A DNA stretch of 64,000 bases from Massilimicrobiota sp. An134 (lineage in GTDB: Bacteria > Bacillota_I > Bacilli_A > Erysipelotrichales > Coprobacillaceae). The translations under genes were made by a program, and so were the position numbers. Shown piece by piece: positions 14,626 through 23,705 of the stretch. Under the pieces are notes generated by a model. It did not search any database. It was not told the origin of the DNA and worked only from the letters and a program-made list of their open reading frames with translations. Numbering within the stretch: position 1 is the first letter of the stretch; every line of letters starts with the position of its first letter. The stretch is from the NCBI RefSeq assembly GCF_002160815.1, contig NZ_NFLH01000012.1:1-64000 (forward strand), in the 5' to 3' direction.

Positions 14626-16038
14626 TTAATCTAAATCTTCACCATTAGATTTAAATGCTTTAGCAACCCAATAGAATGATTTTTTAGGAATACGTTTTAA
14701 ATCTCTGATATCTTTGTTTGTTCTATTAACATAAACAAATCCATAACGTTTATCCATATTACACATACTTGCTAAAATATCAATTGGTCCCCAAGTAATA
14801 TATCCTAAACAAGGAACACCATCTTCAAACATTGCATTTTCCATTTCTTTAATATGATCTCTATGATAGTTGATACGATAATCATCTTCGATTGTTTTAC
14901 CTGCTGCAAGCATTGCATCTACTTCTTCTTGAGTCATATCTTCACGCCATCCAATACCATTTTCAAGAACGAATACTGGTAAATCAGAACGTGTATGTAA
15001 ATCATTTAATGTCCATCTAAATCCAATTGGGTCAATTTCCCATCCCCATTCATTAGCTTCACAATGAGGATTTTTAATCATATGTTCACCAACAACTTCA
15101 TGATATGGTCTTTCTAAGTCAAATTCACCTTCAGTCACTGTATTAGAACGATAATAACTGAATGCAATATAATCAACAGTGTATTTTAATAATTCTTCAT
15201 CGCCTTCTTCAAAATGAGGCATCCATCCTCTATTTTCAAGATAAGCTACCATATAATCTGGATATTTTCCTTTTGCAAAAACATCAACATGGAAACCATT
15301 CATATATTGATAAGCTTGCCATGCAAATAAGTTGTTTTTAGGTGTATTTGTGTATGGATAAATATTTGTAACAGCAGCCATACCACAGAATTTAGCATCA
15401 GGTTGTAATTCTCTTAATGCTTTAACAGCTTTACAATGTGCAATAAAGACATTATGGTTAACTTGATATAAATGTTTTGGTTCACTTACACCTTCAGGAA
15501 TTTCTTCAGCATTAGAAACTCTTAACATTTGACCATGCAAATTTTGTTCATTGAAACTCATCCAATGTTTCACACGATCTCCAAATCTTTCAATACATAC
15601 TCTTGCATATCTTTCAAAGCAATCTACAACATAACGAGATGCAAAACCATTATAATTTTTAACAAGATGGTAAGGCATATCAAAATGAACTAATGTAATC
15701 ATTGGTTCAATACCTGCTGCCAATAACTTATCAATTAAATCACTATAGAACTTCACACCTTCTTCATTAACAGGTTCATCTAAAGTTCCATTAGGAATAA
15801 TTCTTGACCAGCAAATAGAAAAACGATAGAAATTAAATCCCATTTCTTTCATTAATGCAATATCTTCATCATAACGATGATATTCATCAATCGCAACATT
15901 CCAATCTGAAAATTCAGGATTCATTGGTCTAACATCATAAATACAAACCCCTTTTCCTCCTTCATTTCTTGCTCCTTCAGTTTGGAATGATGATACAGAA
16001 CCACCCCAATAAAAATCTTTTGGCATTTTCTTTTCCAC
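14626..16038 (-). CDS. Glycoside hydrolase family 1, probable 6-phospho-beta-glucosidase
   Basis: 470-aa cytoplasmic GH1 enzyme. WGGSVSSFQTEGA opens the TIM barrel; the acid/base Glu is in SFNEQN near residue 167, and the nucleophile Glu is in VLENGIG. The late DKRYGFVYV segment resembles the phosphate-binding KRYG motif of phospho-beta-glycosidases, suggesting phosphorylated substrates, though no PTS gene is nearby. The GTG start is supported by AAGGAGGA eight bases upstream. The upstream palindrome at 16157-16173 matches one in front of the RpiR gene at 22821, implying joint control. Confidence 0.88.
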   Translation of the reverse strand: MEKKMPKDFYWGGSVSSFQTEGARNEGGKGVCIYDVRPMNPEFSDWNVAIDEYHRYDEDIALMKEMGFNFYRFSICWSRIIPNGTLDEPVNEEGVKFYSDLIDKLLAAGIEPMITLVHFDMPYHLVKNYNGFASRYVVDCFERYARVCIERFGDRVKHWMSFNEQNLHGQMLRVSNAEEIPEGVSEPKHLYQVNHNVFIAHCKAVKALRELQPDAKFCGMAAVTNIYPYTNTPKNNLFAWQAYQYMNGFHVDVFAKGKYPDYMVAYLENRGWMPHFEEGDEELLKYTVDYIAFSYYRSNTVTEGEFDLERPYHEVVGEHMIKNPHCEANEWGWEIDPIGFRWTLNDLHTRSDLPVFVLENGIGWREDMTQEEVDAMLAAGKTIEDDYRINYHRDHIKEMENAMFEDGVPCLGYITWGPIDILASMCNMDKRYGFVYVNRTNKDIRDLKRIPKKSFYWVAKAFKSNGEDLD

Positions 16039-16175: not shown

Positions 16176-17297
16176 TTATTCGTATTTATATATTTTAGGT
16201 AGACGATATCCTATACGACTTAAAATTTCGTTAGAAATCGTATTTGTTTGCATCGCAATTGTTTCTACATTTTGACAAACCTGATTCTTACCTATAATAG
16301 TTACAACATCATTTTCCTGAATATTGTCAACATCTGTCACATCAATCATCATCTGATCCATGCAAATACGACCCACTATCGGTGCAAATTTCCCACGAAC
16401 AATAACGTTTCCACGATTAGATAAGGCTCTAGGTAATCCATCAGCATAACCAATAGGAACAGTGGCAATTTTCATGGGTTTTGATGCTATAAATGTTCTT
16501 CCATAGCCAATAGAATCGCCTGATTGAATATCTCTGACTAAAATAATTTTTGATTTTAATGATAAAACAGGTTTTAAAGATAATTGACTTTGCTTAGGCA
16601 ATGAAGAATCAACACCATATAATAAGATTCCCATTCGGACATAATCAAAACTATATGTTGAATAATTTAATAAACCATAACTGCTTAAAAGATGAACCTT
16701 CCCTATTGAATAATGCTCTTTTTTAAGATTTTGAATGAATGTCATGAATTCTTCAATTTGTTGATATGTATATTTTTGACTTTCCTTTGTCGTTTCATCA
16801 CAGACACAAAGATGTGAAAAAAGACCTGTCACATGTAAATAATGAGATTGATAAATAGCTTTGACTTTTTTGATATCACTTTCTCCTAAACGGTGCATAC
16901 CTGTATCAATAGCCACATGAACTTTCACATCTATTTTTTGCTTTTCTAAAAGCTTAGCATAATCTTCGCATATAACTGTCTGCGTCAAATCATAATCTCG
17001 TAATTCTTTGGCATGACAAGGATCGGTATATCCTAAAATCAAGATGTCACCCTCAATATGATTGTCTCTTAATTCAATGGCTTCTGCCAATGTCGCAACC
17101 GCAAAATGATGTATCCCCATTTGATTCAGTTCTTTGGAAATACGAACAGCACCATGTCCATAAGCATCCGCTTTGACAACAGCCATGAATTGTTCTGGAC
17201 AAGAAAGCATTGTACAAATTTGTTTCACATTATGTCTTAAAGCTGATAGATCTATTTCTAACCAGCTTCTTTGACAATCAAACATGTTGTTTCTCAT
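16176..17297 (-). CDS. vanTr: PLP racemase, VanT racemase part (probable serine racemase)
   Basis: 373-aa fold-type III alanine/serine racemase. The PLP lysine is in AVVKADAYGHG near residue 43. At the substrate site near residue 356 the sequence is TISNEIL: alanine racemases have Tyr here (Tyr354 in the Geobacillus enzyme), while VanT serine racemases have Asn, known to favour serine. Known role in the pathway: L-Ser to D-Ser for D-Ala-D-Ser synthesis. The gene overlaps the acyltransferase-like membrane gene by 20 bp, and together they equal one VanT. ATG at 17297 follows AAAGGGGAA. A housekeeping alanine racemase role cannot be excluded. Confidence 0.85.
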   Translation of the reverse strand: MRNNMFDCQRSWLEIDLSALRHNVKQICTMLSCPEQFMAVVKADAYGHGAVRISKELNQMGIHHFAVATLAEAIELRDNHIEGDILILGYTDPCHAKELRDYDLTQTVICEDYAKLLEKQKIDVKVHVAIDTGMHRLGESDIKKVKAIYQSHYLHVTGLFSHLCVCDETTKESQKYTYQQIEEFMTFIQNLKKEHYSIGKVHLLSSYGLLNYSTYSFDYVRMGILLYGVDSSLPKQSQLSLKPVLSLKSKIILVRDIQSGDSIGYGRTFIASKPMKIATVPIGYADGLPRALSNRGNVIVRGKFAPIVGRICMDQMMIDVTDVDNIQENDVVTIIGKNQVCQNVETIAMQTNTISNEILSRIGYRLPKIYKYE

Positions 17298-18303
17298 CAA
17301 TATTCCCCTTTCTTTTCATAAGAACATTCATGATAAATCCAAAACAAAACGAAAATAAAACAACCACAAGAAATTGAATAAAATTATTCTCGATAAGAGC
17401 CATCTGTCCACTCCATTTACCTATCATTCTCACCACAACAATCATCCATGGATGTATGACATAGACCCATAATGATATATTTTTAAGACTGATATATCGA
17501 CGACCTTGAAACGTTATTAAAAATGAAAATAATAAGTAGGAAACAACAGGTAAACTGAAGTACATAGCATCATGTCTTAATGTATAAGAAGTATGTAAAA
17601 TCAATGATTCCCCTATCATCATACACAAACTCAGCAATAGTAAAATCATATGAATATGATGCTTGAAATGATATTTCTGTCTCGCTATCTGAGCACCCAA
17701 CATGATAAAGAGTGGCGCAAAGAAAAATTCATTTCGTGTATAATCCATATATTGAAATATGTATGTATAGAAATGATGAAAAATATCAATCTGACTGATC
17801 ATACTCCAATAACTATCACCAAACACCCCTATAACATATAAACCTATAACTATAAACCATGCATAGTTAAAACAGTATTTGATTAACAATAAAACGATAA
17901 TCAATCCAATGATGGTAGCTGGAAAATACCATAAATGATAAAATGGTCCATCAATAAATATATCTTTGATAATAGCTATCACAAGATGTTCCTGAGAAAA
18001 ATAATGATTATAAATCATGAGTGGAATATAAATCACAATCGCAATTCCATACCATTTCAACAATGAAAAAATTGTCTTTTTTATATGTTCCTGTGTAGGA
18101 TAGCCATCTTTAAAAAGAAAGAACGATGTCACCATAAAGAAAAATGGGACAGCCAACCTTCCAATGGTACGTGTGACAATCAATTCCATAGTTGGATTGA
18201 TTTGTAAAAATGGATAAATATGAATAGCTATTACGAAAACAGCTGCAATGATTCGCCCTATATCAATACAAGGATAACCTTTTTTCATAAGCTTCTCCTC
18301 CAT
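17278..18303 (-). CDS. vanTm: Acyltransferase-3-like membrane protein, VanT membrane part
   Basis: 341-aa polytopic membrane protein of the acyltransferase 3 family with about ten hydrophobic spans and the typical opening CIDIGRIIAAVFVIAIH near residue 14, which keeps the catalytic-type His. In VanT proteins this domain is fused to the racemase and is thought to take up L-serine. Here it is a separate gene overlapping the racemase by 20 bp and VanXY by 19 bp, as in the vanL type (vanTm and vanTr). Confidence 0.82.
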   Translation of the reverse strand: MEEKLMKKGYPCIDIGRIIAAVFVIAIHIYPFLQINPTMELIVTRTIGRLAVPFFFMVTSFFLFKDGYPTQEHIKKTIFSLLKWYGIAIVIYIPLMIYNHYFSQEHLVIAIIKDIFIDGPFYHLWYFPATIIGLIIVLLLIKYCFNYAWFIVIGLYVIGVFGDSYWSMISQIDIFHHFYTYIFQYMDYTRNEFFFAPLFIMLGAQIARQKYHFKHHIHMILLLLSLCMMIGESLILHTSYTLRHDAMYFSLPVVSYLLFSFLITFQGRRYISLKNISLWVYVIHPWMIVVVRMIGKWSGQMALIENNFIQFLVVVLFSFCFGFIMNVLMKRKGNIDEKQHV

Positions 18304-19031
18304 ACTGTCGCAATGAAACCATCCATGTTATTACCTGATACCTGATAAATATCATCATTTCGTAAAGCTATTGTTATCTGGTCTTTGATCATGGGTACAT
18401 AAAAGATTTCAAATACTCTTTGTCCGACAACATAAACATAGGGATGATAAACGGAATAACATTTCAAAAAATCATGATATTCTTCTAAACAAAAGTGGTG
18501 ATCGTTCATAATCAAAGAATGTGGAAATCCTACATAACGAAAATGCCATGCTTCACCACTGATTCCTGTCATCTTTTCTTTATCTTTTTGATATCTTTCT
18601 ATAAAACCAAAATCACCACAAACATGGCGAAACTTTTGACAAATGCCTTGTTCAGGAAAATCCGGACAAATCTCATCAATATCATCCTTATTAAGTGCCA
18701 GATCAATAGCCAAACCTGTTTCATGTTCACTATGATGAGCCTTTGCAACATATTTTTGTGTAAATTCCTGACCATGTTTTATTAAAGATTCCTGATAAAG
18801 CTGTTTTTGTTCTAAAGCAGAGCGATAAGCACTGGCCACAATGATTTCATCTTGAATATGAAGATGATTTAAACATTGGTGAAGAAGTCTAGAAGCATCC
18901 ATTTGTATTTGATGGACTGTATCTTGAAAGAAGCAAAGATTGATATGAGAAAAGGAAAATGGATAATGTTGATTAACAAGGATTAGTGAGCCCTGATGAA
19001 TATCTTTTTTATAAAGTGTTTTGATTTGCAT
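18285..19031 (-). CDS. vanXY: D,D-dipeptidase/D,D-carboxypeptidase VanXY
   Basis: 248-aa zinc peptidase of family M15. ASAYRSALEQ, the zinc motif SEHETGLAIDL (His and Asp ligands) and EAWHFRYVGFPH (catalytic Glu and third ligand) are in order. Removes D-Ala-D-Ala dipeptide and the terminal D-Ala of normal precursors. A C-terminal extension after about residue 185 contains a VGQRVFEIFYVP segment, as in longer VanXY proteins. ATG at 19031 follows GGGGA, chosen over 19049. No signal peptide, so cytoplasmic. Overlaps the ligase gene by 23 bp. Confidence 0.88.
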   Translation of the reverse strand: MQIKTLYKKDIHQGSLILVNQHYPFSFSHINLCFFQDTVHQIQMDASRLLHQCLNHLHIQDEIIVASAYRSALEQKQLYQESLIKHGQEFTQKYVAKAHHSEHETGLAIDLALNKDDIDEICPDFPEQGICQKFRHVCGDFGFIERYQKDKEKMTGISGEAWHFRYVGFPHSLIMNDHHFCLEEYHDFLKCYSVYHPYVYVVGQRVFEIFYVPMIKDQITIALRNDDIYQVSGNNMDGFIATVWRRSL

Positions 19032-20067
19032 GCTGAATCCCCATTTCAATCAATTGTGTTAATAATGTCTGAAAAGATAAACCGTTTTTTTCCATCATCA
19101 TAGGATATCGACTATGGGCTGTAAATCCTGGTATTGTATTGACTTCATTAAAAACAATATGATGATCCGGTGTCAAAAACATATCCACTCTTGCAAATAT
19201 TTGGCATCCTAAAATGCGATAAATTTCTTTAGCTGTTTCCTGAATTTGCAACTCTAAAGAAGATGAAATACGTGCTGGAACATGAATTTGAGATGTTTTG
19301 AGTGTATATTTTTCTTGAAAGTTAAAGAAACCTGAGGACAATTCAATTTCATCAACACGTCCTGTTTTTAAAGTCTTGCATCCCATAACAGCACATCCTA
19401 CTTCAAAGCCTTTGACTTCCTCTTCTATTAAAACACAATCATCATATTGGAACGCTTCAAAAACAGCCTGATCAAGATGATCAAAACTTTCTAAACGACA
19501 CATACCTAGTGATGATCCAGATTTCACAGGTTTCACATAAACAGGTAACTGTAACCCCATGATATCTGGTTTCTTATTTGGATAATCCTGTTGATGCTGT
19601 AAATAAACACAGCCAGGCACTTCAATGCCATGTGCTTTCACTAATTCATGTGCACGATATTTATCCATACACAAAGCCGATGACAATACATCACATCCAA
19701 CAAGTGGAATACCAGTGATTTGAACAAGTCCCTGTACACTTCCATCTTCCCCATTTTTACCATGCAAAATAGGAAAAATCGCATCGACTTCCACTTCTTC
19801 AACTTTTTGATTGCGTATTTCTAGCAAACATTTTTGATGCGGATTTAATGATATAGTAACAGGATTTAAATATTCATGATCCCACTTATCATCTTTAATC
19901 AAAGAGATATCCCCTTCAAAATGTTTCCACTCTCCTTTTTGATTAATACCAATCATGTAAACTTCAAACTTATGTAAATCAAGATGAGATAAAACAGAAT
20001 AAGCTGACTCTAATGAAACACTATATTCTGTCGATTTCCCACCAAAAAGAATTGCCACTTTTTTCAT
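19009..20067 (-). CDS. vanG-like: D-alanine--D-serine ligase, VanG/VanC type
   Basis: 352-aa ATP-grasp ligase. FGGKSTEYSVSLESA, LHGKNGEDGSVQG, VKPVKSGSSLG and FNEVNTIPGF give a complete active site. The omega-loop motif EKYTLK, with nearby ELSSGFF and VGCDVLSSALCMDK, matches VanG/VanC/VanE enzymes that join D-Ala to D-Ser, rather than D-Ala:D-Lac ligases or ordinary Ddl. The product lowers vancomycin binding of cell-wall precursors. ATG at 20067 follows GGAGGG eight bases upstream; an upstream start at 20094 lacks a site. First structural gene behind vanRS. Confidence 0.9.
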   Translation of the reverse strand: MKKVAILFGGKSTEYSVSLESAYSVLSHLDLHKFEVYMIGINQKGEWKHFEGDISLIKDDKWDHEYLNPVTISLNPHQKCLLEIRNQKVEEVEVDAIFPILHGKNGEDGSVQGLVQITGIPLVGCDVLSSALCMDKYRAHELVKAHGIEVPGCVYLQHQQDYPNKKPDIMGLQLPVYVKPVKSGSSLGMCRLESFDHLDQAVFEAFQYDDCVLIEEEVKGFEVGCAVMGCKTLKTGRVDEIELSSGFFNFQEKYTLKTSQIHVPARISSSLELQIQETAKEIYRILGCQIFARVDMFLTPDHHIVFNEVNTIPGFTAHSRYPMMMEKNGLSFQTLLTQLIEMGIQHANQNTL

Positions 20068-20083
20068 CTTATTTCCCTCCATT

Positions 20084-20140
20084 AAAAAAAGCATTTTTAT
20101 TTTGACAACTTCAGTTTATCAAAATAACAAATGCTCTTTT
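20084..20140 (-). terminator. Hairpin with T7 tract between vanS and the ligase gene
   Basis: On the minus strand AGCAT and TTATTTTGA pair with TCAAAATAA and ATGCT, followed by seven T, ending about four bases before the ligase ribosome site. Either a terminator for the vanRS transcript or a leader attenuator for the resistance genes. A-tracts on the other side make it symmetrical. Confidence 0.65.
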
Positions 20141-20183
20141 TTAATATTTCAATATAATCTTCTTATCATTCTATTAATAAAAT

Positions 20184-20201
20184 CTTACAATTTTCTTACA
20201 A
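20184..20201 (-). promoter_or_regulatory. Direct repeat, candidate VanR binding site
   Basis: TTGTAAG occurs twice on the minus strand, 11 bp apart (20195-20201 and 20184-20190), overlapping the last codons of vanS. Tandem 6-7 bp repeats on an 11-bp period are typical of OmpR/PhoB-class regulators. It lies about 120 bp upstream of the ligase ATG, with AT-rich -10-like sequence downstream. Confidence 0.55.
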
Positions 20202-21278
20202 TAAAGGGATCAAGACTTTAAAAATGATTTTTTCATCATAGCTTTCCACCTGAATCTGACCATGATGCTGTTCAATAATCGCTTTAGAAATAGAAAGTCC
20301 TAAACCTGCACCACCCGTATGAGAAGCACGTGAACTATCCAGTCGATAAAATTGTTCAAAGATATGATCAAGCTTTGCTTGAGGAATTGTATTTCCCTGA
20401 TTTTCAAAAGTAAACTCATAACCTTTTTCACTTTGCAAAAGAGTTATATGAATGACTGTATTTTCAAAGCTATAATTCACTGCATTTTTTAAAAGGTTAT
20501 CAAAAACTCTTTGCATTTTTTGAACATCACATTTCATTTCCAGTAAACGTGGAGCATCCAGTTCACATTGTAAGTTCTTATCCTTGAACATAGGTTTAAA
20601 TTCATATATCAATTGTTCTAATAATCTCACGATATCAATACGCGAAAGCTCTAAAGCCTGTTGTGTCAGATTGAAACGTGTAATTTCAAAAAATTCATTA
20701 ATTAAATCTTCTAATCTTTCTGCCTTATCTAAAGCAATCTCAACATAATGATCATGGGATTGTTGAGGAATATCTTTTTCATCTTTTAAAATTGTTAAAT
20801 AACCAATCATAGAAGTTAAAGGCGTTTTTAAATCGTGGGCCAAATAAACAATCAAATCATTTTTCTTCTGTTCAGCCATTTTGGCAGCCTGTTCATTGAG
20901 TTCAATATCTGCTTTTGTCTGATTTAATAAATCATTGACATCTCTTAATTCATCATGTTCCAAATGAATCAGATGTAAATGACGATCATTAATATTTTGA
21001 ACACCTTGAATCACATCTTCTAAATAAGCATAAGGTTTCCTTAATTCAAAAAAGACAATCACCAGATAACCAACAATTAATAAGATAGGTAAAAAAATAA
21101 CAAGTCCATCCTGAATAAACAATAGAAAACGATACAAAGGATCTGATGCATACCATGTGATTTGTGAGGCTAAATTCCAGGCAATCAAAATAATGACAAA
21201 CAAAACACAGGTATAAATAATGGCGAATCCAATAATTCGTAACATTGCTTTTTTTAATAACTCATTTTTACTTTTCAA
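20196..21278 (-). CDS. vanS: Sensor histidine kinase, VanS type
   Basis: 360-aa membrane kinase. Two membrane spans lie at about residues 12-36 and 55-77 with a short external loop between, then a HAMP-like linker. The H-box VYLAHDLKTPLTSMIGYL contains His148, followed by the N-box DNLLKNAVNYS and the G-box GGAGLGLSI. The H-box wording is that of VanS proteins. It probably senses glycopeptide or cell-wall stress and phosphorylates the adjacent regulator. Overlaps vanR by 11 bp. Confidence 0.88.
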   Translation of the reverse strand: MKSKNELLKKAMLRIIGFAIIYTCVLFVIILIAWNLASQITWYASDPLYRFLLFIQDGLVIFLPILLIVGYLVIVFFELRKPYAYLEDVIQGVQNINDRHLHLIHLEHDELRDVNDLLNQTKADIELNEQAAKMAEQKKNDLIVYLAHDLKTPLTSMIGYLTILKDEKDIPQQSHDHYVEIALDKAERLEDLINEFFEITRFNLTQQALELSRIDIVRLLEQLIYEFKPMFKDKNLQCELDAPRLLEMKCDVQKMQRVFDNLLKNAVNYSFENTVIHITLLQSEKGYEFTFENQGNTIPQAKLDHIFEQFYRLDSSRASHTGGAGLGLSISKAIIEQHHGQIQVESYDEKIIFKVLIPLL

Positions 21279-21963
21279 TTTGATACCCCACTCCCCAAAC
21301 CGTTTTAATAAATTTAGGTTTTTTTGTTGACTCCTTGAGTTTTTCTCTTAATCTGGCAATATGTGCCATGACTGTATTATTGTTATCAATGTATTTTTCT
21401 TTCCATACTGCTTCAAACAATTCTTCACTCGATACAACTTTGCCCTGCTTTGAACATAAATACCATAAAATTTCAAATTCAATAGGTGTCAAATCCAATA
21501 ATTCATTATATAAATAACACTTATGTGTTTCTTTATTAATAACCAGCCCTCTAATATCATATTCTAAAATGTCTTGAGGCTGTGTCGTTGCATTATATCT
21601 TTTATAACGTCTCAGTTGTGTTTTCACTCGAGCCACAACTTCTAAAGGATTAAATGGTTTTGTAATATAGTCATCCGCACCTAATGTTAACCCCATAATT
21701 TTATCCATGTCTTCTACTTTAGCCGTTAACATAATAATTGGGAAAAAATAATGTTCTCTAATTTTCTGACAGATTTGAAAACCATCAATATCAGGTAACA
21801 TCACATCTAAAACAGCGATATCAATTTCTTCTTTTTCAATGCACCTGATTGCATCCTGTCCATTATAAAATTTATAAACTTCAAACCCTTCATTACATAA
21901 ATAAAATTCCAAAAGATCTGCAATTTCTTTTTCATCATCTACAACTAATATTTTATCTGCCAT
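21268..21963 (-). CDS. vanR: Response regulator, VanR type (OmpR family)
   Basis: 231-aa two-domain regulator. Receiver: acidic pair Asp9-Asp10, phospho-acceptor Asp53 in VLDVMLPD, Thr in LTAK, Lys in YITKPF. The C-terminal winged helix ends GVGYQIEK, as in OmpR/PhoB proteins. ATG at 21963 is taken because AGGTGATC lies just before it and the upstream GTG at 21972 falls inside that site. It begins 10 bp after the nitroreductase stop, so the two may be co-transcribed. Confidence 0.88.
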   Translation of the reverse strand: MADKILVVDDEKEIADLLEFYLCNEGFEVYKFYNGQDAIRCIEKEEIDIAVLDVMLPDIDGFQICQKIREHYFFPIIMLTAKVEDMDKIMGLTLGADDYITKPFNPLEVVARVKTQLRRYKRYNATTQPQDILEYDIRGLVINKETHKCYLYNELLDLTPIEFEILWYLCSKQGKVVSSEELFEAVWKEKYIDNNNTVMAHIARLREKLKESTKKPKFIKTVWGVGYQIEK

Positions 21964-21972
21964 TTTGATCAC

Positions 21973-22659
21973 CTATCTTTGATCATCTTCATTGTCCCAT
22001 TGAAAATGATTTTTTCCTGCACCTATTTCAAAATGATATTTCACAATACCTAAATCTAATTTTGTATAAAAACCTATTCCTCTTTTCACTTTCACTTTTC
22101 CATTTTCAAAAGCAAACTTAAATTTCTGTTGATTCATAGCAGTTGGGGCCAATAATGCATAACGAACGCCTTCATAAAACCATTGTGGAAGATTTCCCTC
22201 TGTTTCTATAACATCTTTCATATCTTTGCTTCGTCTAGCCGCTCCTTGATTTTCACCATAACCAATTGAAATCACAGCTACTATTTTCTCATCAGAAGCA
22301 AGATGAAGCACTTCTGGAATTTTTTTATAAGTTAAAGCCACCCAACATGTATTTAAACCTAACTGTTGTGCTAATAAAACAAGATGCTCTCCATAATAGC
22401 CACATTTACCCTGTAAATCAGGACTATTCTTCTTACCAATTAAAGCAATATAATGTTGAACACCCTTAAACTTACCATAATGAGCCAGCTGACTTTGAAA
22501 AGCACGCGGTTCATTGAGAATCAACTGAATGTTTAAATGACCCGCCTGATTACATTTTTCAATTTGTTTTTCTAATATTTGTATTTTTTCATCATCAATG
22601 GGTTTATCTAAATATTGACGAACACTATGTCGTTTTTCTACTGCTTCTTTGATATCCAT
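21973..22659 (-). CDS. Nitroreductase-like protein (putative TM nitroreductase family)
   Basis: 228-aa protein. EAVEKRHSVRQYLDKPIDDEK is the FMN-binding N-terminus; GLNTCWVAL and VISIGYGENQGAARRSKD are also nitroreductase-type. The C-terminal LPQWFYEGVRYALLAPTAMNQQKF repeats the family motif. ATG at 22659 follows AAAGGAGA and is preferred to 22680. It is placed directly upstream of vanR on the same strand; a link with resistance is not established. Divergent from the RpiR gene. Confidence 0.8.
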   Translation of the reverse strand: MDIKEAVEKRHSVRQYLDKPIDDEKIQILEKQIEKCNQAGHLNIQLILNEPRAFQSQLAHYGKFKGVQHYIALIGKKNSPDLQGKCGYYGEHLVLLAQQLGLNTCWVALTYKKIPEVLHLASDEKIVAVISIGYGENQGAARRSKDMKDVIETEGNLPQWFYEGVRYALLAPTAMNQQKFKFAFENGKVKVKRGIGFYTKLDLGIVKYHFEIGAGKNHFQWDNEDDQR

Positions 22660-22779
22660 TATGAATCTCCTTTCATCCATTCATCAATACTGATTCTATT
22701 CTAACACAAAGCATCATAAAATACTTCAAAAATATAACAAACATCATTTTTCACAATAAGAGTAAAAATCATCACTTCT

Positions 22780-22803: not shown

Positions 22804-22820
22804 TAGGATTGGTGATAAAA

Positions 22821-23705
22821 ATGAGTATAATGACACAATTAGAATTTGAACTGGAATTCTCTCAATCAGAAAAACAAATTGCAAAATACATTTTAAATCA
22901 TGGTGAAGAAGTTTTAAGTATGTCAGTCAAAGAACTGGCAAAAGAAACATATACTTCTCCTGCGACCATTGTCAGACTCTGTAAAAAAATAGGTTTAGAA
23001 GGTTATAATGATTTTAAAATCAAATATTCTGCCGAATTACAATATGATTTACATCATACGGATCGTATTGATGTCAATTTTCCTTTTTCTAAAGATGACA
23101 GTTATCCTATGATTTGTCATAAGTTATCTTCTCTTTATCAGGAAGTCATTGCAGATACAATTAAACTTATTGATTTTACTGAATTAAATAAGATTGTTGA
23201 TTTATTATATCCCCATCAGCATATTGATATTTATGGTTCTGGTAATTCCTTATTAGCAGCCATGAGTTTTCAACATAAGATGATGCGTATTTCCAGAGAT
23301 GTCAATTTAAGAATTTTACATGGTGAACAGGTCTTTATGTCATATAATTCCAATTCCTCACGTATTGCGATGATTATTTCTTATTCAGGAGAAACCAATG
23401 AAAATATTCAGATTGCTCAAACCTTAAAAGAAAACAATACACCCATCATTGTTTTAACATCAGTTGGTGATAACCGTTTATCTCATTATGCTGATTATAT
23501 TTTAAATATTGGTTCTAGAGAAAAGATTTTTACGAAAATAGCTCCTTTTGCTTCACAAATTTCTATTGAATATCTCTTTAATGTCATTTTCTCTTGTATT
23601 TTTCAAAAAGACTATGAACAGAATATTCAAAATAAAATTAGTTACGATAAAAAGAATGATTTTCGTCATCCATTATCTAGTCCAGTGAGTGATGAAATAA
23701 AGTAA
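22821..23705 (+). CDS. MurR/RpiR family transcriptional regulator
   Basis: 294-aa regulator with an N-terminal HTH_6 domain (MSVKELAKETYTSPATIVRLCKKIG, about residues 32-56) and a C-terminal SIS domain (DIYGSGNSLLAAM, ISYSGETNEN) that binds phosphosugars. ATG at 22821 follows AGGATTGGTGA. The operator in its own promoter also occurs upstream of the GH1 gene at 14626, so it probably controls a beta-glucoside regulon including the MFS gene that follows. Effector is inferred, not seen. Confidence 0.88.
   Translation: MSIMTQLEFELEFSQSEKQIAKYILNHGEEVLSMSVKELAKETYTSPATIVRLCKKIGLEGYNDFKIKYSAELQYDLHHTDRIDVNFPFSKDDSYPMICHKLSSLYQEVIADTIKLIDFTELNKIVDLLYPHQHIDIYGSGNSLLAAMSFQHKMMRISRDVNLRILHGEQVFMSYNSNSSRIAMIISYSGETNENIQIAQTLKENNTPIIVLTSVGDNRLSHYADYILNIGSREKIFTKIAPFASQISIEYLFNVIFSCIFQKDYEQNIQNKISYDKKNDFRHPLSSPVSDEIK

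Follow-up and report, generated by a model that had tools for sequence, protein, structure and literature searches.

The stretch analysed here, a 64-kb window of the Massilimicrobiota sp. An134 genome (contig NZ_NFLH01000012.1), carries a vancomycin-resistance (van) cluster that we read as a chromosomal D-Ala-D-Ser system of the VanG type, induced by VanRS and fitted with a leader hairpin that serves as attenuator or insulator; we put the probability of this reading at roughly 0.82. The enzyme set belongs to a known kind with a VanL-like split of VanT, and what is new is the leader hairpin, a terminator-like structure between vanS and the ligase gene. Genomes and loci used for comparison carry G and L numbers, G000 being the genome that holds the window.

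By analogy with known families, VanTm and VanTr would supply D-serine, the ligase would make D-Ala-D-Ser and VanXY would remove D-Ala-D-Ala and D-Ala-ended precursors, and lipid II would thereby lose most of its affinity for vancomycin. On the same grounds, glycopeptides are predicted to induce the system, with VanS and VanR activating a promoter just after vanS and VanR binding paired boxes at the vanS stop codon, and resistance would be the outcome. The hairpin between this promoter and the ligase would form a second gate on transcription, either as an attenuator or as an insulator against vanRS read-through, a role suggested by its sequence alone.

A VanG-type gene set

An earlier note, made from the sequence of the window, had described a complete D-Ala-D-Ser cluster of six consecutive genes on one strand with short overlaps, ending at 22659. 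Its diagnosis of a D-Ala-D-Ser cluster, here assigned to the VanG type, complete in core genes, chromosomal and with the regulators upstream, is upheld by NCBIfam models, by PDB matches and by the EKYTLK omega loop of the ligase. The six van open reading frames (ORFs; Table 1) are all open and co-oriented on the minus strand, together occupying 16176-21972, and neighbours overlap by short stretches as described, except that a spacer separates vanS from the ligase; the span drawn in the note has to be shortened, as its end includes a seventh gene, which encodes a nitroreductase and does not belong to the van set. The division of VanT into membrane and racemase genes is borne out. The likely ligase start is the ATG at 20067, preceded by GGAGGG, which gives a protein of 352 aa.

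Three of the proteins pass curated NCBIfam cut-offs: the ligase with the VanG model (506.4 bits, cut-off 495), VanTr with the vanT-G catalytic model (503.7, cut-off 460) and VanR with the general VanR model (412, cut-off 350). The ligase reaches 359.2 bits with the general D-Ala-D-Ser ligase model (cut-off 520) and 276.4 bits with the VanL model, far under the cut-off of 750, which places it outside VanL. VanTm scores 260.4 bits against a cut-off of 900 with the whole-VanT model, which was built for the fused protein. The closest solved chains are 4fu0 for the ligase, 4ecl (a serine racemase) for VanTr and 4f78 (a D,D-dipeptidase/D,D-carboxypeptidase) for VanXY, with the catalytic stretches aligned in the last case; the PDB names are more general, and we take these chains to be VanG, VanT-G and VanXY-G, respectively. 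PADLOC gave no match for VanTm or the nitroreductase.

The genome (94 contigs, 2.56 Mb) also has a separate Ddl on contig C78, with further ligase-family matches much weaker, and a separate Alr on contig C56, so the van cluster is an extra pathway in this organism. The omega loop reads EKYTLK in the van ligase and ESKYED in the genome's own Ddl, and the racemase site reads ISNE (Asn357) in VanTr and IPYE, with Tyr, in Alr; an Asn at the place of the Alr Tyr presumably sets serine specificity in VanT-G. In a ligase tree of 40 rows, eleven Ddl rows from the family cluster apart (100/100), which leaves this ligase outside the housekeeping Ddl enzymes, and the window ligase joins those of G028 (99/97) and G008 (100/99). 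Resolution is weak in the wider EKY group, outside which fall the VanC and VanN ligases, also EKY, with GKY-loop ligases of the sister family in between. VanTr is separated from the genome's Alr with 99/99. The ligase tree excludes the partial ligases of G003 and G037 and the second ligase of E. gallinarum, and the G001 ligase pieces, the G090 VanTm pieces and the G037 racemase piece were under the length limit for trees. By Pfam family, the ligase cannot be told from Ddl, nor VanTr from Alr, as would be expected of a housekeeping D-Ala-D-Ala ligase and alanine racemase under misleading names; we rejected that identity as scarcely credible in view of the genome's own Ddl and Alr, the cut-offs passed, the active-site letters and the trees.

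A conserved hairpin precedes the ligase gene

Between the VanR-box-like repeats described below and the ligase, the RNA folds into one long hairpin with a U-tract, at -26.2 kcal/mol for 136 nt, compared with -13.7 (s.d. 2.45) for shuffled sequences, none of 200 being as good (z -5.1); the single-sequence fold consists of this hairpin plus one small upstream stem. The hairpin is flanked by the U-tract and an A-tract and ends 16-17 nt before the ligase ATG. Its pairing is preserved among relatives by compensatory changes. Among seven aligned family sequences, pairing holds in 88.5% of cells (80.8% after shuffling), and both sides change at 7 pairs (4.1 after shuffling; 4 of 500 shuffles reach this number). 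In ten sequences aligned at the apex over 25 pairs, the share of pairing cells is 86.2% (73.2% after shuffling), with both-side changes at 13 pairs (8.1 after shuffling) and in 36 cells (14.2 after shuffling); none of 500 shuffles attained any of these three values. As the fold of the window supplied the structure, the share of paired cells is biased upwards, and relatedness is not removed by the shuffles. Sliding the partner by 1-3 columns left 50-61% of cells paired, with 12 pairs and 21 cells still changing on both sides at -1. G-U pairs are used by six of the ten sequences at one pair and by four at another. The apical GATA-N9-TATC/TGTC is conserved, and in the lower stem the letters vary and pairing is kept. 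Rfam holds no match at gathering score, with one chance snoRNA match under it.

A palindrome with so conserved an apex could also be a DNA operator for a repressor comparable to VanU of vanG, given that the targets of VanUG at the regulatory promoter of vanG are imperfect inverted repeats of 14 bp (PMC4405338). We regard an operator as improbable: an RNA is favoured because of the G-U pairs, the U-tract on the sense side and the score of the model R1, which was built from the sense strand and gives 75.9 bits on that strand against 40 on the other; the lower stem, moreover, varies its letters while pairing.

In 7 of 12 family ligases tested, 16-25 nt separate the end of the hairpin from the start codon. 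Counting G037, whose hairpin was matched later by R1, it is present in 8 of 13 family clusters identified independently of R1; among nine ligases outside the family, none has a hairpin of this strength directly before it (in G051 and G136, vanW comes first). When we required at least 12 pairs, -12 kcal/mol, a T-rich tail and an end within 30 nt of the start, 4 of 150 genes at nine loci qualified, all four van ligases. In a second control of 270 genes at 31 loci, six had a hairpin of this kind: the ligase of G038, VanW of G051 (the first gene of its van operon), VanTm of G280, VanTm of G053 and two unrelated genes.

Searching 315 genomes of the order with R1 (E up to 0.01) yielded one site each in 15 genomes, 10 of which had served to build the model; some of these palindromic sites were seen on both strands, and G000 has only the one. 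All except that of G021, which is not van-linked, precede a van-type operon (14/15), whose first gene is the ligase in G000, G001, G003, G008, G017, G028, G034, G037, G038 and G040, VanW in G051, G136 and G250, and VanTm in G280. Among the matches outside the training set, the G037 hairpin is identical to that of G038 over the aligned stretch and thus not independent, and three of the other four are van-linked: G034 and G040, from the genus of G038, and G250, where R1 matches weakly (E 0.0042) and 101 nt lie between the end of the match and the start codon. It was only the R1 match that revealed the van operons of G034 and G040, which lack vanXY proper and vanTm. Across 392 genomes of the phylum (E up to 0.001), R1 made four matches, all in this order and including G021, under strict filters that may lose weak ones; a weak match (E 0.8) precedes vanN of E. 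faecium. Searches of open-licence papers on attenuation or leaders in van operons turned up no such element, nor do the available portions of PMC4405338, PMC8541618 and PMC2965389 describe one in a van operon.

VanR-box-like repeats and the role of the hairpin

The VanR-G box is given as (T/C)CGTANGAAA(T/A)T (PMC4405338). Two box-like direct repeats 11 nt apart score 20/24 against it, overlapping the vanS stop codon and lying 37 nt upstream of the leader hairpin. This is the only place in the window that reaches 20 (the next score, 19, occurs at three places), and 3 of 3000 random 120-nt pieces of the window did so, pieces over the site itself not being excluded. The gap between the nitroreductase and rpiR holds no pair of 19 or more, so no strong VanR box stands before the regulators.

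The spacing recurs. Among 14 van-linked cases, a box pair exactly 37 nt before the hairpin is the best or second best of 98 offsets in ten, four of which score only 16-17, as is common among random pieces; two further cases are best at 36 or 38 nt, and G040 and G280 do not fit. The spacing of the boxes suggests that induced transcripts begin upstream of the hairpin, but mean repeat score peaks at gaps of 37, 26, 15 and 4 nt, an 11-nt rhythm that would fit other promoter positions and start points as well. Inspection by eye places candidate -10 sequences some 10-14 nt ahead of the hairpin. Scans for consensus promoters and terminators gave results close to those of shuffled sequence, and this A/U-rich hairpin was not among the terminators reported.

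How the hairpin would act depends on where transcripts begin. It might be a mere terminator of the vanRS transcript, with resistance transcripts starting in or after its 5' arm and never being attenuated. This fits the tracts of U and A on either side, the periodic peaks, which would allow a promoter nearer to or within the hairpin, and G250, where the distance to the start codon leaves room for a promoter downstream. We think it a plausible, if doubtful, account, given that the 16-25 nt measured in the seven family cases leave no such room and that the candidate -10 sequences lie upstream. Because there is no room for a promoter between hairpin and start codon, except in G250, induced transcripts either pass the hairpin (attenuation) or start inside it (insulation). 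In G008 the upstream gene is followed by a second terminator-like hairpin (by eye) and the leader hairpin is nevertheless retained, which favours a leader role for the hairpin itself. Judged from sequence, the leader hairpin probably adds a second control on switching the genes on.

A broader proposal, which we advance tentatively and at slightly less than even odds, is that the van-type operons of Erysipelotrichales share an unnamed cis-RNA leader of fixed geometry (GATA-N9-TATC apex, 5-nt loop, U-tract), placed mostly 36-38 nt after a box-like pair and acting as a post-initiation attenuator of glycopeptide resistance. Such a leader would travel with the promoter whatever the first gene, be it the ligase, vanW or vanTm alone; linked to this is the idea that the separate VanTm may do more than serve the racemase and have a function of its own.

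Insertion site and history of the cluster

An rpiR-type gene and a GH1 gene flank the cluster in three genomes of the genus (G000, G001 and G003) and in G028, from another genus. In G003 it is spread over two contigs with the break inside the ligase, and G001 carries the locus within a single 2.93-Mb contig in the order rpiR, nitroreductase, van cluster, GH1-like gene, GH1. Two other genomes of the genus are van-free at this place. G002 has rpiR, the nitroreductase and a GH1-like gene at a contig end, and GH1 with a GH1-like gene (32% identical) on another contig, so that both flanks of the empty site are visible, though separated by a contig break; on a single contig, G004 has rpiR, an apparent 65-aa nitroreductase remnant, a GH1-like gene and GH1. 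Because of these gene orders and that of G001, the nitroreductase predates the van cluster at this site. It is perhaps co-transcribed with vanRS, yet we rejected it as a van accessory gene, as it adjoins rpiR in G002 without a van cluster and is an apparent remnant in G004. In G036, rpiR and GH1 adjoin with no van genes between them, and in G032, G033, G027 and G008 they are separated by a van-free gap of 1.7-4.3 kb; the van clusters of these genomes lie elsewhere. The closest named ligase, 89% identical, comes from an uncultured Massilimicrobiota metagenome-assembled genome (MAG; contig CALUZM010000028.1); NCBI taxonomy places Massilimicrobiota in Erysipelotrichaceae.

Between G000 and G003, the ratio of nonsynonymous to synonymous divergence (dN/dS) is 0.063-0.185 for the six van genes (for the ligase over 260 codons only), values indicative of purifying selection. 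Synonymous divergence between G000 and G001 is 0.98-1.51 in the van genes, 0.96 in rpiR and 1.24 in a major facilitator superfamily (MFS) gene, all near saturation, and 0.40 in GH1. No mobile-element family was found among the 20 window proteins scanned with Pfam, a subset of the window ORFs, and 80% coverage of the cluster is reached by none of 143 matching plasmid records. Recent acquisition of a mobile cluster might be suspected from the related clusters at other places in other family genomes and from the otherwise similar, empty sites of G002 and G004. We consider this very improbable, as the site is common to two genera, the van genes are as diverged at synonymous positions as rpiR and MFS, and the scanned proteins include no mobile-element family. 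The cluster is a resident chromosomal trait of some species. The earlier note's suggestion of an intrinsic trait thus holds for residence, purifying selection and the one site shared by G000, G001, G003 and G028, and fails for the genus as a whole: VanTm is found in three of five genus genomes, being absent from G002 and from G004 (87% complete).

GH1 itself (window 14626-16038 against L029:7109-8521) shows a synonymous divergence of 0.09 between G000 and G003, with 0.25-0.63 in four other flanking genes; at the cluster edge it has perhaps undergone recent exchange. G004 has, on another contig, a ligase-family gene (L030:5538-6608) that is 36-37% identical to the van ligase and sits on a very long branch, with a FELKYKG loop, not of the EKY type, and no recognised van neighbours. 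Near the locus in G001 (L027, L183) the nitroreductase is short, an ECF gene lies in two pieces and the ligase in two frames. These broken genes look more like assembly indel errors than decay, and we rejected the split ligase as a proven pseudogene, nearby genes being broken in the same assembly.

Points against the reading and a possibly silent cluster

Several observations weigh against a functional, hairpin-controlled VanG-type cluster. VanS (366.7 bits, cut-off 400) and VanXY (237.1 against 500 for VanXY-G, 188.2 against 250 for VanXY) remain under their NCBIfam cut-offs, though each is best in its class. Of 13 family clusters, 5 are without the hairpin: G027, G029 and G033 have none, G032 has a weak distant one, and that of G036 (-14.6 kcal/mol) ends 40 nt before the start and was counted as absent. 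Boxes, for their part, occur without it, the box-like pairs of G032, G033 and G036 scoring 18-21/24. The cluster is missing from two of five genus genomes (G002 and G004). Constraint is weaker on the van genes than on their flanks, because five flanking genes have dN/dS values of only 0.027-0.053 (the nitroreductase, 0.219). The G001 ligase lies in two frames, in an assembly with other broken ORFs. Finally, the role of a complete vanG cluster was disputed in Clostridioides difficile (PMC11326576).

A genuine cluster might still be phenotypically silent or weak, its expression too low to lower vancomycin susceptibility and the hairpin helping to keep it off, much as in wild-type C. difficile, where resistance through vanG was unclear and derepressing VanRS mutations reduce susceptibility (PMC11326576). 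A leader hairpin would favour a low basal level, and the clusters of G034, G037, G038 and G040 are reduced or decayed. We judge silence unlikely for the window cluster, whose six genes are open and, between G000 and G003, under purifying selection, a state hard to keep without use.

Split VanT and related clusters

Our family search covered 43 genomes. VanXY searches matched all 43 through general VanY enzymes, and a protein was counted as VanXY only at 160 bits or more, which left 11 of 43 genomes. All 11 have VanTm, separate from VanTr in ten and fused to it in G029. The window VanTm keeps the motifs DxxRx10H (D14, R17, H28) and SxxxY (S277, Y281), and D14, R17, H28 and Y281 are kept in 11/11 family rows, with Ser277 nearly invariant. 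These are acyltransferase-3 motifs, and the function of the VanT membrane domain, in which resistance mutations fall, is described as not yet considered (PMC12423673). Trees leave the split or fused ancestry of VanT as open forks. An order-wide search with the VanTm alignment matched 93 of 315 genomes, a figure that includes acyltransferase-3 genes without van neighbours (30 loci inspected) and is not a count of van clusters.

VanTm also occurs by itself. In G280, from the sister family, it stands alone directly after vanRS. At L123:5852-8755, VanTm, without adjoining racemase or ligase, lies directly behind vanRS and the leader hairpin, and another such VanTm, at L124:7555-8568, lies behind a different terminator-like hairpin.

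Six family clusters have a VanY-like gene after vanTr (Table 1), which the window cluster is without. One genus holds reduced or decaying clusters: VanTm is lacking beside the ligase and racemase of L076, L201 and L202, the last two of which also have no VanXY; L075 and L076 have a shortened VanXY, and L075 keeps only pieces of ligase and racemase. A different operon occurs in the sister family (L110-L117; for example, L110:3709-8425), consisting of a GKY-loop ligase, a VanT-like racemase with Asn at the discriminating place and then an acyltransferase-3 gene, with no VanXY. A Mur ligase gene lies upstream of the GKY ligase in L110 (Pfam check in L110 alone), and in L116 and L117 an ORF of roughly 810 aa has the ligase as its C-terminal portion. 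The GKY-operon ligase is the only one found in five of eight such genomes, and these bacteria may have D-Ser-ended peptidoglycan by default.

Table 1 Features of the window and VanY-like genes of related clusters
Feature	Position	Strand	Description and basis
GH1 glycosidase	14626-16038	minus	Downstream flank of the insertion site
vanTr (serine racemase catalytic subunit)	16176-17300	minus	374 aa; Lys43 in VVKADAYGHG, Asn357 in ISNE
vanTm (VanT membrane subunit)	17278-18303	minus	Acyltransferase-3 family, 341 aa; ORF, NCBIfam, Pfam, alignment
vanXY	18285-19049	minus	D,D-dipeptidase/D,D-carboxypeptidase, 254 aa; SEHETGLAID and GEAWHFRYVG stretches aligned with 4f78
VanG-type D-alanine--D-serine ligase	19009-20094	minus	Omega loop EKYTLK; ORF, NCBIfam, PDB match, tree
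Leader hairpin	20084-20141	minus	58 nt, about 25 consensus pairs, 5-nt loop, U-tract; fold and covariation
VanR-box-like direct-repeat pair	20179-20201	minus	20/24 against published VanR box; consensus from PMC4405338
vanS	20196-21278	minus	Sensor histidine kinase, 360 aa; ORF, NCBIfam, Pfam
vanR	21268-21972	minus	OmpR-type response regulator, 234 aa; ORF, NCBIfam, Pfam
Nitroreductase-like gene	21973-22680	minus	Neighbour from the older locus, not a van gene; Pfam and comparison with G002
RpiR-type regulator	22809-23705	plus	Upstream flank of the insertion site
VanY-like gene	L068:11459-12676		Pfam-checked
VanY-like gene	L069:9686-10924		Similarity to VanXY
VanY-like gene	L070:11907-13115		Similarity to VanXY
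VanY-like gene	L071:12092-13348		Similarity to VanXY
VanY-like gene	L072:5718-6932		Similarity to VanXY
VanY-like gene	L073:12300-13553		Similarity to VanXY

Relation to known systems and significance

The cluster resembles vanG of E. faecalis BM4518 and C. difficile in that its ligase and racemase pass VanG-type models, VanXY-G is the best match of its VanXY, vanR and vanS lie upstream and VanR-type boxes stand at the resistance promoter. In vanG, vanY and vanW lie between the regulators and the ligase. The window cluster has no vanU, vanY or vanW (vanW comes first in its relatives G051, G136 and G250) and has a leader hairpin after the boxes, and its ligase directly follows vanS and a nitroreductase precedes vanR, so it is not an E. 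faecalis vanG operon in the strict sense; of the vanG order proposed in the earlier note, the upstream regulators are upheld. VanT-G, unlike the two-gene VanT of the window, is fused (PMC12423673), and the vanU repressor gene lies before vanRS in vanG (PMC4405338).

The split of VanT is shared with vanL of E. faecalis, for which NCBIfam has VanT-L membrane and catalytic models. The vanL regulators lie downstream, whereas those of the window lie upstream, and the window ligase is far under the VanL cut-off (276 against 750). The names vanTm and vanTr appear in print (PMC11597547). Clusters of the vanC and vanN types have the same core set of ligase, VanXY, VanT and VanRS and differ in their fused VanT, their downstream vanRS and their ligases, which are 41% and 39% identical to that of the window. 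Annotations of vanG, vanXY and vanT exist in red grouse caecal MAGs (PMC12366002), as does vanRS in Clostridium innocuum (class Erysipelotrichia), called vancomycin-resistant in works cited there (PMC9942572); the available portions of both sources show no gene order, split VanT or leader. Searches of open-licence papers for this genus with vancomycin turned up no resistance test.

Leader-terminator attenuators likewise have a terminator-like hairpin with a U-tract between promoter boxes and ribosome-binding site; the element described here differs in having no Rfam match at gathering score and no antiterminator in the single-sequence fold. The 'vanR-leader' (PMC2965389) precedes a vanR gene in bacilli and does not lie between vanS and the ligase.

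The protein set is of a known kind and by itself only extends D-Ala-D-Ser clusters to another bacterial group, gut commensals, in some species of which it is resident. In the literature consulted, control of van operons is described as resting on VanRS, with VanU in addition in vanG. The conserved leader hairpin, if true, would be a further layer of control and could explain a tight off state. A separate vanTm that keeps DxxRx10H, in turn, makes the question of the VanT membrane domain (PMC12423673) directly testable without touching the racemase.

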